Both the position numbers and the translations under genes were made by a program. From the NCBI GenBank assembly GCA_944384505.1, contig CALWTQ010000007.1, positions 1 to 64,000 on the forward strand: a stretch of DNA of 64,000 nt, given 5' to 3'. The notes below the pieces were generated by a model. It did no database searches. It worked only from the letters and a program-made list of their open reading frames with translations, and was not told the DNA's origin. Positions 12,148 through 20,848 of this stretch are shown here, piece after piece. The DNA is from an uncultured Mediterraneibacter sp. Its GTDB lineage: Bacteria > Bacillota > Clostridia > Lachnospirales > Lachnospiraceae. How positions within the stretch are numbered: the first letter of the stretch is position 1; each line of letters opens with the position of its first letter.

Positions 12148-15100
12148 TCAGATCGCTCCACCTATCCTCTTGAATTTCTCTACGAAAGCAGATATTTTTT
12201 CAAGCACGCTCTGTTTCTTAGCGTGATATTTCGGATTGAGCGGGCTCATTTTAGGAAGAGCCTCATTCAAGCCCGTCCCATTTTCGCTTGCGTATTCCTT
12301 TTTTAATGATGCGAGAATATATCGTTTTGCGGCATCCTCATTGAGCTGTTCCTCTCTTATCAGATCTTCCGCTTCCTTTTTCTGTTCTTTTTGCGCAAAT
12401 TGATAAAATGCATCCAGAACACTTGCTTTATCCTTTATTTCATCTAAAGACGTTTGATTAATAAAATCCACAATCAAACTTTCCTTCGCACGATTTTCCG
12501 CACTGGAGCGTGCTATACGGCGCATTTCTTCGACCAAAGCGCCCTTATCTTTTATATTTTGATTTTTCTCAAAAATCAGTTCGAGGATATAATCCAAATT
12601 AATCTCCTGAGATTTTAGCAGATCTACTTCAAATACAACATCATCCCAGTCAATTTTTGACTTTTCTTTATCTCTTCCTTCTTTTTCACGACGAATCCAT
12701 TCACGAATATCATTATATGCAGAACGATAGTCCTGAATCGTTCTTTCTGCCAATACATCTATCGATTGCATAGCTTTCAGGTCTTCGTCGCTGACAAAAT
12801 ACGCTGCCTTAAATTCTTTTACATCTTCCGGATCACTGAGATCAACTTTCTGCAATGCCTTTAAACAGGTAAACTCATCATAGTTCTGCAAAACATTTTC
12901 GATTCTCAGATATTCTCCAAACAATTTAACAAACTCTTTTTTATCCTTTTCTGTAACAATTTCATCAACATCTGCAAAACGTGAATTTAATTCCTTCACT
13001 ACATCCACATAACCGCGGCATATTTCACCTGTAGCAAGATCCTTAAATCCCTCCATATATTCTTTATAGCTTTTTTCAAGAACTATATTTCTTGTATTGT
13101 CATCCCCAAAACACTTTATCGCATCAATTGTCGCCTGTTCCAGATTCCTGAAAGTAACAATATTCCCAAATGTTTTTGTCGAATCATAAATACGGTTCGT
13201 TCTGGAAAACGCCTGCATAAGTCCGTGATAGCGAAGATTTTTATCTACAAACAGCGTATTCAATGTTGGCGCATCGAATCCTGTCAAAAACATACCGACA
13301 ACAATCAAAAGATCTACTTCTTGATTCTTTACACGATTAGAGAGATCTCTGTAATAATTTTGGAATTCTTTACTTTCAACGCCAAAAGTAGTTTGAAACA
13401 TTTTGTTATATTCAGCAATAGCAAAAGCCAGAAATTCCTTTGCGCTGCTGTCCATTGCTGTGGGTTCAAAGGTTTCATCAGGGATTTCTCCTATTGCATT
13501 CTGTTCTTCATTCACCGCAAAAGAAAAAATTGTTGCGATTTTCAAAGGTTTTTCACATCCATTTTGCAGACTGTTAAGAGATTCATAATAGAGTTTTGCC
13601 GCATCAACACTACTTACAGCAAACATTGCATTAAACCCCTTCGCTCCAACATGAGTGCGGTGTGTTTTCACTCTAAAATTATCCAAAATATATTGTGAAA
13701 TTTCCTTTATTCTTTCCGGATGCAATAACGCTTCTTTGGTCTCGGCAGCCGTCAGCTTTTTCTCATCCTGTTCCCTTTCAATTGATTTGAATTTAGGACG
13801 GACGTCATTATAGTCAACTTTAAATTTCAAAACCTTTTCATCTCTGATTGCATCAGTTATAGTATAGGAATGCAGTTCTCTCCCGAATACTGATGCAGTT
13901 GTTTCAGCTCCCAATGCGTTTTCAGGAAATATTGGCGTGCCCGTAAAACCAAATTGATAATATTTTTTAAACTTTCTTTTGATATTTTTTTGCGCTTCAC
14001 CAAACTGCGAGCGATGAGCTTCATCAAAAATAAAAACAACCTGCTTATTGTAGATTGATAAATCTGATTCAGCTTTTACGAGATTATTCAATTTTTGAAT
14101 CGTAGTAACAATAATTTTATTATCATCTTTTTCAATGTTGCGTTTCAGTCCGGCGGTATTTTCCGAACCATTTACACTATCCGGCGAAAAGCGTTGATAC
14201 TCTTTCATGGTCTGATAATCCAAATCTTTCCGATCCACTACAAAAAGAACTTTATCTATATAATCCAGTTCTGTGGCTAATCGCGCTGCTTTAAAACTAG
14301 TCAGTGTTTTTCCGGAACCTGTTGTATGCCAAACATATCCGCCCCCCTCGGTCGTCCCCCACTTTTTGGCATTATAAGAACATTTTATTTTCCAGAGAAT
14401 TCTCTCTGTTGCTGCAATCTGGTAAGGACGCATAATCAATAAATTGTCGTTTACATCCAGGACAGAATAAATCAGCAACACCCTTAACACTGTACTTTTT
14501 TGAAAAAAAGTTGCAGTGAAATCTTTTAGATCCTTAATCAAGGTATTATCTGCTTTCGCCCAATTCATCGTAAAGTCGAAGCTGTCTTTGTCCCTTCTCG
14601 TCGTATTTGCAAAATAACGGGTGTCAGTACCATTTGAGATTACAAACATCTGCAGATATTTATATAAAGAGTTTTCTGAATTAAAGCTCTCTTTGCTATA
14701 CCTGTTTATCTGATTGAAAGCCTCGCGTATGGCTACTCCTCGTTTCTTGAGTTCTACCTGAATCATCGGCAATCCATTGACCAGAATTGTAACATCATAC
14801 CGGTTAGCCCGAGCCCCTGTCTGCTCAAATTGAGAAATAACCTGTACTTTATTTTTTGCAATATCTTTTTCTTCTTTTTTTACAAGATATATATTCTTTA
14901 TATGCCCATCGTCAAATACGAAATCATAAATGTAATTACTATGAATTTTACGTGTTTTATCTATATGGTTATCACCTGCTTTGTCTAAATATTCCTCACA
15001 AAATCTTGTCCATTCCGAGTCAGTAAATTGAACGTCATTGAGTATCTGCAACTGTACACGTGCATTCTCAAACATCGCCTCCGGAGTTTTCAAATCCCGC

Positions 15101-15261
15101 AGATATTCATACCCCTGACTTCTCAAATCTTGTATAAACTCGTTTTCAAGGTCCGCCTCTGTCTGATATGTACTTGTTTCGCGCACACATGACGCATATT
15201 TTTCATATTTGTCCAGAACTATGAAATTGTTTGATTCTGCTATCGGATTATATTCATACAT
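12148..15261 (-). CDS. hsdR: Type I restriction endonuclease subunit R
   Basis: This 1037-aa motor and nuclease subunit starts at ATG 15261. The GGAAGGAG ribosome site sits ten bases upstream, and a longer TTG-started form would bury that site. The N-terminal nuclease carries a PD-(D/E)xK pattern (Asp156, Glu170-x-Lys172 in [11 protein letters not shown]). The SF2 motor has Walker A TTGSGKT (313-319), DEAH (413-416) and GFTGTPIF. The C-terminal part is helical and probably binds the methylase core. Its ATG overlaps the prrC-like stop (TGATG). With HsdM and HsdS it should translocate and cut unmodified DNA. Length and motifs are complete. Confidence 0.95.
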
Positions 15262-16403
15262 CAGTCTGGCTCCTTCCAAAATTTTGCATTGTCAATCAGA
15301 TGATTAAATAATAGTTTCACCGTTTGTTTTTCTGGCTCTGTCGGTTCTCTCACTTCATCGTTCAATAAAGTTCTGTGACTATAAAAATTCATAATACGTG
15401 CCGCATATACTTCCTTATCCTCAGGCAGCAGATCTGACCAGTGTTTATACCCAAGAAAATTTGCCGCCTTCTCGTATAAATTACGCAACAAAGTAAAATG
15501 ATATTTTTCAATTTTGTTTTCTTCAATTGCCCGTTTAATTATCCCAATCAAATAATGATGATAAGAAAAACTTTTATTTGAATCTCCAAACTTTGTATCT
15601 AATTCATAACTTCCATCCTCATTCTTTTCCAACATATATCCCGCCTTTTTCCCTTGCTTTTTTCTTGCTTCTTTCGCAATTTGTAATTCATTATATAGCA
15701 CATTGTAAAACACAGGACTATGTGTGGTAATAATAAATTTTAAATCAGATTCATTCTTTCGGATTATTCCTGCCAGATTTACCGCCATCTGTATCAAGTG
15801 ATTATCATCAAGAGACGTCACCGGATCATCAATAAAAATATATTCTAATTGATTCAGTTTGTCTGTTTCTCTGTCACTTTCTTCCGGTATATTCAGTACC
15901 TCTACAACTTGTTCCAACAAACTATAGAAAACGCTCCAGACAAAATTGCTCTCTTCTCCTTTGGATATCTTAATATTTTCAGCATCCTGATCATTTCCTC
16001 TTTTAAGAGAAAATATTACCTCCGAAAAATCTTCATTAAATTCCGGTGTTAACGCCTCATTATTAACATAAGTCTGAAAATTACTTATAACATTTCGCTC
16101 TTGTCCCTGCTCAGCAAATATCCAGTCTGTAAATATGTTCGGATGGATTTTCAGTTTCAAATTAGTATCGTTATCCAAATCATTATCCCAATAAAACAAG
16201 TCTTCGGTAAACGCATTATAATAAAGTATTCTCTTACCTGCCAATCCTGTTTCTTCTTCATCCGATTCATTTTTAGGGGCAACCAAATTTTTAAACGCTC
16301 TTGAAAGCCGTGTTTTACCAGTGCCATTAAAAGCATATATTAACTGTACTTTTTTGCCGCAGTCTTTGAGCTGTCTTGCAATTTCATCTAAGGTTTTTCC
16401 CAT
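15261..16403 (-). CDS. prrC: PrrC-type anticodon nuclease (ABC-ATPase ribonuclease)
   Basis: This 380-aa protein has an ABC-type ATPase body: Walker A FNGTGKT (25-31), a divergent signature SKGEE (147-151), Walker [10 protein letters not shown] (176-184) and switch His218. The C-terminal part carries Arg307, Glu311 and His343. This R-x3-E-x31-H spacing equals that of the catalytic Arg320, Glu324 and His356 of E. coli PrrC, which cuts tRNA-Lys at the anticodon when phage disarms the linked type I enzyme. The 396-aa PrrC is similar in size. The gene lies between hsdS and hsdR, as in the prr locus, and overlaps hsdR by one base. HsdRMS is expected to hold it silent. The target tRNA is inferred. 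Confidence 0.87.
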
Positions 16404-16423: not shown

Positions 16424-18157
16424 TTAAAATGACAACAATTTATCCCTGTAATATTCGTATTGTTTTTGTCGCGCTTCAATCTCTGCCGGAAGCCCGGAAG
16501 AAATACCATTGCATAAAGCATCAAATTGGTCAAGGATCGTAACAATGTATTGCTGTCTCTCAAGCGAAGGGACAGGAATTTTTAAGCTTAAAATACGTGA
16601 AGCGTTCAGATCACCTCGTGCGCCCTCTTTTCTTGAAAGCAACTCTTCGTATTGACTACATACACAGTAAAAAACATACTTATACATTGCAATAGCAGGA
16701 TCTATCTCGATATTTAGACAATGTTGATTCGTAGTCAATGGTATTTTGTTAATTGCACATCTGCCGGCAGACGCGCCAGATATAGCTATAATTACACAGT
16801 TTTCAGGTATCCACTTTGCAGAAGTTTCCTTAACTGCGGTCTCTGTAACATAGGCTGTTGCTTCATACACCTCATTAAATCTAACATCTTGTGTGCGAAG
16901 CCACGGTATAGTTCCTCCTGCATAGTAGTCGCTATTTCCCTTTTTAGGGGTAGCACCAGAACTGCTGCGTGTGCAAATGTCGCTCAGGGATAGAGAAACA
17001 TATCCAAAAACATATTGCAAAAGTTTAATTAAGCTCTGTCTGTCTGACTGAGCAATTATGTTGCCTGTTTCAGCAAATGTCAAGAGAGCATCACGATAAA
17101 ATTCATATTGTTTTTTTCGTAATTCTATCTCAGCAGGTAATCCAATGTTAAGGTCAGAACAGATGGATTCAAAATTATCTAACACACCAGCCAAACGTTT
17201 CTGTACTTCAAGTGTGGGAACAGGAATTTTATATGCAAGCAATCTTTGAAAGTCCAACGAATCAACTGTTCCGCCTTGTTTTTTTGTTAATTTTCGAATA
17301 TCCTCTGCATAAGCTTGTATCACGTGGAATACATAGCGAGAAGATATTCCGTCTTTCACTACAAGTGCTTTAATATCTTGTTTTATACCGCCATCTTCAA
17401 GGGCTTTTTCTGTCAAATGATCTTCCGTACCTTCAAGAGCAGAGTTTTTCATATCTTTTGATAAAATCCACGGGATAATTCCATTCTCCCAATACTCTTT
17501 ATTGGCAGTAGATGGTATCTTACCACCGCTCCATTTCCCCAACTCAGAAATGGCGACCATGGAACACTCGTTTTTTGGGTATTCTAATAAGCGGTTTCTA
17601 TAATATTCATACTGTTTCTTTCTTGCTGTAAGCTCTGCTGTAAGCTCTGCTGTAAGCTCTGTGAACTTGTCCAAAATACGGACAACTTCACTCTGCACCT
17701 CTAAAGGAGGCACAGGAATTTTAAAATCTTCTGTAATCTTTAATGATATTTGTGGTAAAGATCCCATACCAGCAGCAGCTTTTCTAAAAAAAGTCAAATT
17801 ATTTTTTAATACATAATATAAAAATTTTACTGATGTTATATTTTCGTGCGTATATGCCCACATTTCATTTTTAAATGTGAATGGTCGGTCATAATACACA
17901 GCATCAATTACGCCTCGAGATTGAATCAATACCGCTGGAACTCTCGTTATATTAGCTTTAGGAATATCCTTTTCATAAGCATCAATCACTGTTTTTCCAC
18001 CTGCAAATATACGGATATCGCCATTATTATTTTCAATTTCTTTCATTTTTGCGGCTGTTATAGGAGTTCCTTTTAATCGTGTATAAACTTCTTTAATTGT
18101 TTTGAACTCTACCCCATCAGGACATAACTTTGAAATTAATTCATCTAATTTACTCAT
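16424..18157 (-). CDS. hsdS: Type I specificity subunit HsdS with three TRD modules
   Basis: This 577-aa protein is larger than the usual 380-450 aa. It holds three target-recognition modules, each ending in KIPVPxLExQ (at 146, 310 and 526) and a coiled-coil segment KQYEyYRxxLL (at 181, 349 and 565). Normal HsdS has two. Between modules 1 and 2 a stretch TELTAELTAELTA (166-178) is encoded by three perfect 12-bp repeats; in EcoR124I/II the number of TAEL units sets the spacing of the two half-sites. Module 3 starts near 385 (SSGATPKKGNSDYY). It overlaps rhuM by 8 bases. HsdS directs both methylation and cutting. A fusion or recombination origin is likely for the extra module. Confidence 0.93.
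   Translation of the reverse strand: MSKLDELISKLCPDGVEFKTIKEVYTRLKGTPITAAKMKEIENNNGDIRIFAGGKTVIDAYEKDIPKANITRVPAVLIQSRGVIDAVYYDRPFTFKNEMWAYTHENITSVKFLYYVLKNNLTFFRKAAAGMGSLPQISLKITEDFKIPVPPLEVQSEVVRILDKFTELTAELTAELTARKKQYEYYRNRLLEYPKNECSMVAISELGKWSGGKIPSTANKEYWENGIIPWILSKDMKNSALEGTEDHLTEKALEDGGIKQDIKALVVKDGISSRYVFHVIQAYAEDIRKLTKKQGGTVDSLDFQRLLAYKIPVPTLEVQKRLAGVLDNFESICSDLNIGLPAEIELRKKQYEFYRDALLTFAETGNIIAQSDRQSLIKLLQYVFGYVSLSLSDICTRSSSGATPKKGNSDYYAGGTIPWLRTQDVRFNEVYEATAYVTETAVKETSAKWIPENCVIIAISGASAGRCAINKIPLTTNQHCLNIEIDPAIAMYKYVFYCVCSQYEELLSRKEGARGDLNASRILSLKIPVPSLERQQYIVTILDQFDALCNGISSGLPAEIEARQKQYEYYRDKLLSF
17625..17660 (-). repeat. 12-bp tandem repeat in hsdS encoding TAEL units
   Basis: Three perfect copies of GCTGTAAGCTCT (plus-strand reading) lie in frame in the linker between the first and second recognition modules. 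They encode the TAEL unit. Gain or loss of a 12-bp unit would keep the frame but change the spacing between DNA half-sites, as known for EcoR124I (two units) and EcoR124II (three). Confidence 0.9.
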
Positions 18158-19175
18158 CTATTGCCCCACTTCCTTGTAGCAATTGCTTTACTTCTCTATC
18201 AAAATCCGATGTAATCTTCTGTGTCTTATTAAACTCATCGTATTCCGCAGTTGCCTTTTTGTCAGCGTCTTTCTTTGATATCTTACCTTTTCCTTTCAGC
18301 ACATCATATTTTCTAAATTCCAAGAATTCATTGATACTGGTCGCAAATTCAGCCATAGTAAATGTATTCTCCCGTTCGATTAAATCTTCAATATAATCAA
18401 AATAACCTGTCACTGTACGCTCCAGCTGGCGAATCTGCTTCTCATTAAGATAATTTTTTGCAATGGTCACATCAGATTTCAGGATTCTTCCATCCGGAGA
18501 ATTCTTCCATGTAACTAATCCCATATGTTCTTTTGTATGATCTGCCTTTGCATCGATAATCTCTGCAGCCGTTTGGCCTGTAATCGCATAATGAAATTTA
18601 TTTTGAACCATCGCATAAAAGTCATGTGTTATTTGTGAGTCTTTATCATAATCAATACTGCACTCTGCAAATATATCCGTAATTTGCTGCCATATTCTTC
18701 TCTCACTTGCACGGATAGAACGAACCCGTTCTAACAGTTCTTTAAAATAGTCCTTACCAAACGCTGTCTTTCCCTGCTTTAAACGCTCATCATCCATTGC
18801 AAAGCCTTTTATCATATATTCCTTTAAAATACCTGTTGCCCATATTCTAAAGTTAGTAGCTTTTCGTGAATTGACTCGATATCCGACTGAAATGATTGCA
18901 TCAAGATTATAAAATCTTGTTGGTTTTGTTTGCGTTTTCCCTTCGATCGCACCATGTTCTGTGGTTGTTTCCAAAATGGAAACAACCACTTTTTCTTCTA
19001 GTTCGCCTTCTTCAAAAATATTTTTTAAATGCTTTGAAATTGCCGGAACTCCAACTCCAAACAACTCCGCCATTGCTTTTTGAGTTAACCATATTGACTC
19101 ATCTTTTACTGCCGCACGAATACTTACGCCTTTATCAGGCGTATTATATACTAAAAAGTTTAATTCTTTGTCCAT
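18150..19175 (-). CDS. RhuM family protein
   Basis: This 341-aa protein matches the virulence RhuM family along its length. An N-terminal winged-helix-like part (IWLTQKAMAELFGVGVPAIS) leads into RFYNLDAIISVGYRVNSR, then ATNFRIWATGILKEYMIKGF, with a C-terminal charged helical region. RhuM proteins are often encoded inside type I restriction operons, but their biochemical role is not settled. The N-terminal part suggests DNA binding. It starts two bases after the hsdM stop and overlaps hsdS by eight, so it is fully embedded in the restriction operon. A GAGGAA ribosome site supports the start. Confidence 0.9.
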   Translation of the reverse strand: MDKELNFLVYNTPDKGVSIRAAVKDESIWLTQKAMAELFGVGVPAISKHLKNIFEEGELEEKVVVSILETTTEHGAIEGKTQTKPTRFYNLDAIISVGYRVNSRKATNFRIWATGILKEYMIKGFAMDDERLKQGKTAFGKDYFKELLERVRSIRASERRIWQQITDIFAECSIDYDKDSQITHDFYAMVQNKFHYAITGQTAAEIIDAKADHTKEHMGLVTWKNSPDGRILKSDVTIAKNYLNEKQIRQLERTVTGYFDYIEDLIERENTFTMAEFATSINEFLEFRKYDVLKGKGKISKKDADKKATAEYDEFNKTQKITSDFDREVKQLLQGSGAIDE

Positions 19176-19177
19176 AT

Positions 19178-20725
19178 CTATTCCTCGATTTCAGCAATTA
19201 TCTTATCTATTTCTGAACGAAGTCTGTCTATATCTTTCACCGTCTTTTTAATTTCAGCATTTAAGGCTTTAATATCTATAGCCTCTCTTGTATCCTTTGC
19301 TTCAACATAAGTACTTACAGTTAAATTATAATTTTCTTCTGCAATCTTATCTTTATCTACAGATTTAGCAATATATTCTTTATCTTCTTTGCCTGCAAAC
19401 AATTGCATTATTTTCTCAATATGTTCATCTGTCAGAATATTATTATTCGTTTCCTTTTTATAAAAGTCCTCGTCGCTTGCATCTATAAATTGGATTTTAG
19501 TATCCGTTTTATGTTTTGAGAGCACCATTATATTAACAGCAATTGATGTCCCATAGAAAAGATTTGGTCCAAGCGCAATAACTGTTTCCACAAAGTTATT
19601 ATCTACCAAATACTTTCTGATCTTTTGCTCTGCTCCTCCGCGATAAAATATTCCGGGAAAACATACAATTGCCGCCCGTCCCCGGCCGGAAAGATAATTC
19701 AGCGAATGAAGAATAAAGGCGAAATCTGCTTTTGACTTGGGTGCCAATACGCCTGCCGGCGCAAAACGTTCGTCATTAATGAGGGTAGGATCATCGCTAC
19801 CGATCCAATTGATAGAATATGGTGGATTTGACACAATTGCATCAAAAGGTTTTTCCTCTCTAAAATGCGGCTCCGTAAGCGTATTTCCTAATGCGATATT
19901 AAATTTATCATAATTAACATTATGCAAAAACATGTTCATACGCGCAAGATTATATGTCGTATGATTTATTTCCTGGCCAAAGAATCCCTCTTCGATCACA
20001 TGTTCATCAAATTGTTTCTTGGCCTGTAACAGCAGTGATCCTGAACCTGCCGCCGGATCATAAATCTTATCAATGGTAGTTTGCCCATGTGTCGCAAGCT
20101 TCGCAATAAGTTTTGAAACACATTGTGGTGTAAAAAATTCACCACCGGATTTTCCCGCATTAGCCGCATAATTAGAAATCAAATATTCATAGGCATCGCC
20201 AAATAAATCTATTTGATTATCTTGAAAATCGCCAAAATCAAGTCCTTCAACGCCTTTGATAACAGCCGCCAAACGTGCATTTTTGTCTTTTACTGTGTTT
20301 CCCAATCTATTACTTGTTGTATCAAAATCAGCAAATAAGCCTTTAATATCTTGTTCAGACGGACAGCCACTTGCAGAATTTTCTATTTCATCAAATATAG
20401 TTCTTAAATCTGTATTCAAATTTTCATTTGTATTTGCATTTTCTGCAATTCTACAAAATAGCTGACTCGGATAAATGAAGTAGCCTTTTGTTTTAACAGC
20501 GTCTTCTTTGATTTCTTCGGTTATAATTGTATCATCAAGTTCTGCATAATTTATGCTATCGTCTCCACCTTCCATATAGTTAGAAAAATTCTCACTAATA
20601 AAACGATAAAAAAGGGTTCCTAATACATATTGTTTAAAATCCCATCCATCTACAGAACCACGGACTTCATTCGCTATCTTCCATATCTGTGATTGTAATT
20701 CTGTTCTTTGTGCTGCACTTGACAT
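19178..20725 (-). CDS. hsdM: Type I restriction-modification methyltransferase subunit M
   Basis: This 515-aa N6-adenine methylase subunit has an N-terminal helical domain ([20 protein letters not shown]) and [16 protein letters not shown]. The AdoMet-binding DPAAGSGS lies at 223-230 and the catalytic NPPY at 300-303. The C-terminal 60 residues are a coiled coil that would contact HsdS. The start at 20725 is chosen for GGAGG seven bases upstream; an upstream in-frame Met lacks a ribosome site. It is the first gene of the defence operon, with a promoter about 95 bases upstream. With HsdS alone it would form the modification enzyme. Confidence 0.95.
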
Positions 20726-20819
20726 ACAACTACCTCCAATTGTTATATTAAATCCTATATTAAAAATACTTATTTGGAAATAACATTTTAAACCATTCAA
20801 GTCCAAATATTTACGGAAT

Positions 20820-20848
20820 ATTATACCATACTGCAATAGAAATTTGAA
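20820..20848 (-). promoter_or_regulatory. Putative promoter of the restriction/defence operon
   Basis: On the minus strand a TATAAT (20820-20825) and a weaker TTCAAA (20843-20848) are 17 bp apart, placing the transcript start about 85 bases before the hsdM ATG. Confidence 0.55.

Follow-up and report, generated by a model that had tools for sequence, protein, structure and literature searches.

The window, by which we mean the whole stretch of 64,000 nucleotides analysed here, carries a five-gene operon on its minus strand, in the order hsdM-rhuM-hsdS-prrC-hsdR (Table 1). Between hsdS and hsdR lies the 380-aa open reading frame that a preliminary description had placed there, and we find it as described, on the minus strand; its reading frame has no internal stops, and many stops are found on the plus strand across the same interval. 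The genes are tightly packed: rhuM and hsdS share 8 bases at the 3' end of rhuM, and the prrC stop codon (TGA) shares one base with the likely hsdR start, an ATG at 15261 (TGATG), just ahead of which stands AAGGAG. The stop/start overlap, together with the AAGGAG, suggests that the translation of prrC and hsdR may be coupled. At 18961-18989, within rhuM, the plus strand also has a hairpin of 13 pairs with a run of T after it, which may be a chance occurrence.

Table 1. Features of the prrC operon in the window, with coordinates and the basis for each
Feature	Position	Strand	Basis
hsdR, type IC restriction subunit	12148..15261	(-)	EcoR124_C (Pfam), TIGR00348 hsdR (NCBIfam)
prrC, anticodon nuclease PrrC, 380 aa: ABC-ATPase head and C-terminal nuclease domain	15261..16403	(-)	ORF, PADLOC profile, tblastn, alignment, dN/dS
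Catalytic triad region, residues 307-344	15372..15485	(-)	Alignment; helix limits from structure model
tRNA-Lys recognition segment, residues 271-281	15561..15593	(-)	Alignment; Asp287 role as reported in part of PMC3014915
Walker B/D-loop, residues 189-199	15807..15839	(-)	Alignment, motif search
Walker A, residues 24-31, AFNGTGKT	16311..16334	(-)	Alignment, motif search
hsdS, 577 aa, three repeat modules	16424..18157	(-)	Pfam and module comparison
(CAGA)3 at the module 2/module 3 junction of hsdS, in frame	17035..17046	(-)	Relatives carry long AGAC/ACAG tracts there
Perfect 12-bp tandem repeat, 3.2 copies, encoding ELTA units in HsdS	17624..17661	(-)	
rhuM-family gene, 341 aa, between hsdM and hsdS	18150..19175	(-)	PF13310 E 7.7e-105; PDC-S05 (PADLOC)
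hsdM, type I methyltransferase subunit	19178..20836	(-)	Pfam; TIGR00497 (NCBIfam)

The PrrC protein

The PADLOC PrrC model spans residues 3-378 of the 380-aa protein (E 7.5e-140), and in tblastn searches of plasmid records E. coli proteins annotated 'anticodon nuclease' are 57% identical to it over 99% of its length. By the same search 113 plasmid records match it, every one of them below 60% identity, while at the DNA level relatives turn up in 21 of the 5,426 E. coli genomes searched. AAA_13 (E 4.9e-15) is the sole Pfam family over the cut-off for the full protein, and no fitting model was found in NCBIfam. The ABC motifs are present in the form of the Walker A motif, SKGEES (residues 147-152), the Walker B/D-loop and His228, which is found in 84/84 aligned sequences; the labels 'signature' for SKGEES and 'switch His' for His228 are our own assignment. 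Residues 62-76, in which 14 of 15 positions are conserved in at least 95% of the 84 aligned sequences, are presumably the 'PrrC box', a conserved stretch specific to the family.

The alignment of 84 rows comprises the window protein, the best 80 of 456 candidate relatives (from one scan of genome contigs) and three E. coli proteins. The protein of E. coli strain B1 (L085; 396 aa, annotated 'anticodon nuclease') serves as the E. coli reference and stands in for the published EcoPrrC sequence; its R320, E324 and H356 sit exactly at the numbers given for EcoPrrC in the relevant part of PMC2610378. The preliminary description had pointed to Arg307, Glu311 and His343, with the R-x3-E-x31-H spacing of the E. 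coli triad, and had named alignment of the C-terminal region as a check. All three residues share the columns of L085 R320, E324 and H356, which hold R in 83/84, E in 84/84 and H in 84/84 sequences, the lone exception at R being a Cys in L041. The spacing is exact and is matched once in the whole protein. By itself it is nonetheless a weak sign, since 545 of 20,000 shuffled versions of the protein show the same pattern, and it is the homology that is the real evidence. His343 forms the end of RIMNFYSH (336-343), where R336 (80/84) and H343 make up an R-x6-H; the nuclease domains of PrrC and RloC have been assigned to the HEPN superfamily, with the active-site motif Rx4-6H (PMC3710099, in part).

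The recognition segment at residues 271-281 aligns with E. coli 284-294, and 10 of the 11 residues are identical. We take this segment to be the one known as LARP. The single difference is Phe272 in the window versus Tyr285 in E. coli, and the column concerned is variable (K 22, Y 19 and H 11 of 84). Asp274, which corresponds to E. coli Asp287, is conserved as D in 83/84; Asp287 of EcoPrrC is described as the probable point of contact with the modified wobble base (PMC3014915, in part).

Structure prediction was carried out for the full protein and for its C-terminal domain. The full AlphaFold2 model, based on 79 sequences, has a pLDDT of 79, a pTM of 0.67 and a mostly helical C-terminus; R307 and E311 are both placed in a predicted helix (300-317), and H343 starts a short helix within a low-confidence segment (343-349). 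Its top Foldseek matches are ATPase heads (PtuA, Rad50, cohesin, SMC), not nuclease domains, and the 5 matches at E <=0.001 in a viral structure library are all to ATPase-like proteins. Modelled alone, the C-terminal domain is of low confidence (pLDDT 62), with its best PDB match at E 2.3. A Pfam scan of this domain in 70 members gave no HEPN family but scattered matches, the best of these being RET_CLD1 (20/70 domains, best E 1.6e-4), and PDB sequence searches reached best E values of 0.069 and 0.078, neither of them convincing. As judged by titles and the first parts of abstracts, none of the listed papers since 2022 on PrrC with cryo-EM deals with a PrrC structure.

We identify the 380-aa reading frame, on its sequence, as a PrrC orthologue because of the profile match, the full-length similarity, the triad, the tRNA-recognition segment, the ABC motifs, the lack of a CxxC zinc hook (the protein has one Cys) and the operon context; the earlier reading of a PrrC-type anticodon nuclease is thereby borne out. 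What the window contains is an intact prrC in the canonical hsdS-hsdR slot, and its product has kept the residues that the family uses for ATPase, nuclease and tRNA recognition. It is an unexceptional instance of a system already known, and a rare one in its own bacterial family.

Relatives, genomic neighbourhood and distribution

Among the best 80 of the 456 candidate loci, an hsdS match lies upstream of prrC in 80/80, ending no more than 100 bases from prrC in 79 and about 1 kb away in L020. An hsdR match lies downstream in 78/80; it follows prrC within 100 bases in only 57 of these 78 loci and after 0.2-2.1 kb in the other 21, so that direct coupling of prrC and hsdR is not universal. All of hsdM, hsdS and hsdR are visible in 73/80 loci, contig ends limiting the remainder. 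A RhuM match of any size is present in 21/80 loci, in the prrC-hsdR gap in 9, between hsdM and prrC as in the window in 7, after hsdR in 4, and in 1 locus from which hsdR is absent; RhuM-like genes have already been listed as companions of the PrrC family (PMC3710099, in part).

The order hsdM-hsdS-'anticodon nuclease'-hsdR was found in one E. coli chromosome (L085) and on one plasmid with phage genes (L084). The preliminary description had equated the gene order of the window with that of the prr locus; this stands for hsdM, hsdS, prrC and hsdR, but an extra rhuM, which it did not mention, is present as well. Like the E. coli prr locus (EcoprrI, hsdM-hsdS-prrC-hsdR), the window shows full-length homology, the triad, the recognition segment, the Asp287 equivalent and the ABC motifs, together with the hsdS-hsdR slot and a type IC HsdR. 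Unlike it, the window has rhuM between hsdM and hsdS, a three-module HsdS of 577 aa and a Lachnospiraceae-type gut anaerobe as host, and its PrrC is without some 16 residues that are found near position 17 of E. coli L085. Separately, we note that in L084 (CP057689.1), an E. coli plasmid with terminase and other phage genes, the prr operon is complete and lies beside a Phd/Doc pair.

Other known systems resemble the window in part. A 433-aa AAA ATPase of E. coli C51 (L086:8953-10254) occupies the same hsdM-hsdS-X-hsdR slot and keeps the triad columns, but its recognition segment is altered (DS--PFSYH) and its C-terminal part is identical to that of the window at 51/128 positions; perhaps this protein has another tRNA specificity. 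PrrC170 of Klebsiella quasipneumoniae is likewise a PrrC accompanied by type I R-M genes, although the genes are listed as HsdR, HsdS, PrrC, HsdM (PMC11555353, in part). This list is resembled by the gene order around two distant PrrC-like genes in the host's family (L178 and L179; 33-34% identical by tblastn), namely hsdR-prrC-hsdM with hsdS seen in one of them; both keep the triad and differ in the recognition segment.

The host, which the preliminary description had correctly taken for a gut bacterium of Clostridia type, belongs to the genus Mediterraneibacter (Lachnospiraceae, Clostridia). Within its family, 3 of 299 sampled genomes match PrrC at E 1e-30, one of them closely and the two others, those of L178 and L179, at 38-39% identity. 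Within the genus, the matching genomes (3/58) are that of the window and two at 92-93% identity, and two of our aligned relatives, L004 and L005, are apparently the same loci as these two, as their ends are identical. Titles and the first parts of abstracts revealed no paper on PrrC in Clostridia. On viral contigs, 26/31 loci have a PrrC match of more than 80 residues at E <=1e-10, and 24 of these 26 also have an HsdR match; in phage genome records, matches to PrrC numbered 0/50,697.

HsdR has a wider distribution. In the host family it is matched at E 1e-150 in 17 other genomes of the 299, at only 50-54% identity, and 1047 plasmid records hold an HsdR match of at least 60% identity (73-80% among the matches listed) versus the 113 with any PrrC match. 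It follows that most such HsdR have no PrrC on the same record, and hence that PrrC is an optional cargo of type IC operons. We had also considered that PrrC-linked HsdR might form a separate clade, an idea contradicted by the many close HsdR on plasmid records without PrrC.

The site of the operon was compared through the neighbourhood of rpsI. In the stretches around rpsI from 12 genomes of the genus, of which one stops 68 bases past rpsI and another two are under 5.4 kb in length, no match to HsdM, HsdS, PrrC, HsdR or helicase was found near rpsI at E 1e-10. The window was also searched for a repeat of the final 100 bases of rpsI that might mark an attachment site, and nothing of 13 bases or more matched. 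In one of the 12 genus relatives (L120; G345:C32) a partial RhuM match (36%, residues 7-136) was seen about 3 kb after rpsI, near the site of the window's operon.

HsdS modules and repeat tracts

The modules of the window HsdS resemble one another (modules 1 and 2, 30% identical, E 2e-14; modules 2 and 3, 31% identical, E 1e-32), and its 577 aa compare with 437 aa for the longest HsdS reading frame measured among the 80 prrC loci. Module 2 is without 32 residues that are found in L180, the gap lying at about 17386 on the minus strand, between residues 257-258; judging from its sequence, module 2 may have a defective recognition domain, whose part the third module perhaps now plays. The ELTA units encoded by the 12-bp tandem repeat resemble TAEL repeats, the number of which sets the spacer of EcoR124-type sites.

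Three relatives from the host's family, all with no PrrC match, carry repeat tracts in hsdS. In G172 (L180) a 422-aa HsdS ends in (ACAG)14 and is followed by a separate half-HsdS reading frame of 200 aa; in G171 (L182) a 422-aa HsdS ends in (AG)20, with a half-HsdS reading frame of 216 aa after it; and in G120 (L181) (ACAG)18 lies within a single HsdS of 638 aa. At the homologous junction the window retains no more than (CAGA)3, a contracted tract across which the third module is fused in frame. Among prrC-bearing loci, L004 (1-130) and L005 (1-90) have at least 30 and at least 19 AGAC units, respectively, directly before the third module, the contigs stopping inside the tracts; the third module itself differs between the two, being 91% versus 35% identical to that of the window. 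In an alphaproteobacterial prrC operon, L013 (7696-8996), a (GCAA)6 tract marks the point where hsdS breaks into two halves that are out of frame with each other. As far as the contigs reach, a non-homopolymer tract of at least 16 bases is found in the 2300 bases before prrC in 3/80 loci, and a fourth such tract, in L017, is inside prrC itself. Repeats were reported in 7.9% of type I hsdS genes in a REBASE survey (PMC7394358, in part), and our count, made by criteria that differ from those of the survey, gives no suggestion of repeat enrichment beside prrC.

Repeat slippage as a means of switching hsdS is already known, for instance from NgoAV (PMC7394358, in part). In the passages of PMC12707154 and PMC3710099 (PrrC/RloC only) that we examined, no case was seen that links such slippage with PrrC or an anticodon nuclease. 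The three modules in the window, together with the long (AGAC)n adjoining the third module in the two closest prrC operons, suggest slipped-strand phase variation of HsdS, a part of the complex that would be expected to silence PrrC. This leads us to a broader speculation, to which we assign a low probability: the prrC operon of this Mediterraneibacter lineage would be phase-variable, (AGAC)n slippage toggling between a two-module and a three-module HsdS and thereby altering DNA specificity and the latency or translation of PrrC together, and the window would represent the contracted form, with module 3 locked in frame and module 2 damaged. A switch in hsdS would reset PrrC latency because the R-M complex is the expected silencer of PrrC. 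If true, an epigenetic switch would have been turned into a control on a tRNA nuclease.

Predicted target, rival readings and mechanism

The host genome itself contains three tRNA-Lys(UUU) genes with TTGACTTTTAATC (pattern search and ARAGORN), two of them at contig ends, so that their true number is uncertain, as well as one tRNA-Lys(CUU) gene, and it encodes the 2-thiouridine (s2U) enzyme MnmA/TrmU. EcoPrrC is reported to require both the anticodon UUU and modification at the wobble position (PMC3014915, in part), and PrrC170, at 35% identity to EcoPrrC, to target tRNA-Lys and to defend against T1 and T7 (PMC11555353, in part). Because of the host tRNA-Lys(UUU) genes, MnmA/TrmU, the dependence of EcoPrrC on UUU and the targeting of tRNA-Lys by PrrC170, host tRNA-Lys(UUU) is the predicted target. 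For the window PrrC we predict the same set as for PrrC170, namely tRNA-Lys as target and a role in anti-phage defence.

Two points would favour a PrrC of shifted specificity, one that cuts both Lys isoacceptors or some tRNA different from tRNA-Lys(UUU). One is Phe272, which stands in place of E. coli Tyr285 at a position variable within the family; the other is that wobble modifications in Gram-positive bacteria may not match those in E. coli. EcoPrrC has been described as sensitive to wobble modification (PMC3014915, in part). The other 10 of the 11 recognition-segment residues, however, equal those of E. coli, genes for tRNA-Lys(UUU) are present in the host, and PrrC170, which is far more distant from EcoPrrC, still targets tRNA-Lys (PMC11555353, in part). 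We regard such a shift as improbable, and a PrrC directed at tRNA-Lys(UUU) remains the preferred reading. Far less room is left for an RloC-type anticodon nuclease, or for an SbcC/Rad50-like DNA-repair ABC ATPase sitting by chance in an R-M operon. AAA_13 as the only Pfam family over the cut-off and the fold matches to Rad50, SMC and PtuA heads might be read in this way, and RloC shares with the window PrrC an ABC head and the R-x3-E-...-H nuclease triad (PMC2610378, in part). Yet RloC proteins are 658-897 aa in length as opposed to 380 aa (PMC2610378, in part), that is, about twice as long, with a zinc-hook/coiled-coil insert; RloC is also rarely linked to R-M genes, and excises the wobble nucleotide. 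The length and the missing CxxC contradict the RloC and SbcC/Rad50 identities, and the full-length match to the PrrC profile and the upstream hsdS in every one of the 80 loci likewise speak against them; we give this reading practically no chance.

The presence of prrC in only 3/58 genomes of the genus could be taken to favour a relic gene, no longer active, that has travelled with the R-M genes. The dN/dS ratios (Nei-Gojobori) of the window gene versus its near relatives L004 and L005, both from uncultured Mediterraneibacter and 90-93% identical to it, speak otherwise: they are 0.088 and 0.093 for the whole gene, 0.045 and 0.076 for the ATPase part, and 0.149 and 0.107 for the C-terminal part. 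Values near 0.09 argue for a working gene, and by this measure the ATPase and C-terminal parts are both under purifying selection; the reading frame has no stops and the catalytic residues are kept. On the dN/dS values we reject a relic as very unlikely.

It is established for EcoprrI/PrrC that the R-M complex silences PrrC, and that inhibition of R-M frees PrrC, upon which tRNA is cut (PMC3014915, in part). We consider it highly probable that the window encodes a functional PrrC orthologue of the same kind, which would guard a type IC R-M enzyme, be silenced by the complex and cut tRNA-Lys(UUU) on its release. By orthology to the E. coli system, PrrC would be held latent by the HsdR/HsdM/HsdS complex until a phage factor inhibits that complex and PrrC is released; a nucleotide-driven conformational change of the ABC head would then unmask the C-terminal nuclease, which would cut tRNA-Lys(UUU) upstream of the wobble base, and translation would stop. 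The suicide back-up that the preliminary description had proposed is thus a likely mechanism for this operon.

An EcoPrrC-type restriction guard, with a near-unchanged lysine-tRNA recognition segment, can now be placed in a gut Lachnospiraceae-type genome. A prediction follows for phages that infect such hosts: they have to refrain from anti-restriction, repair the tRNA or supply a tRNA-Lys of their own. In the closest relatives, the repeat tract next to prrC further raises the question of what the fate of a latent anticodon nuclease may be when its silencing partner randomly changes specificity.
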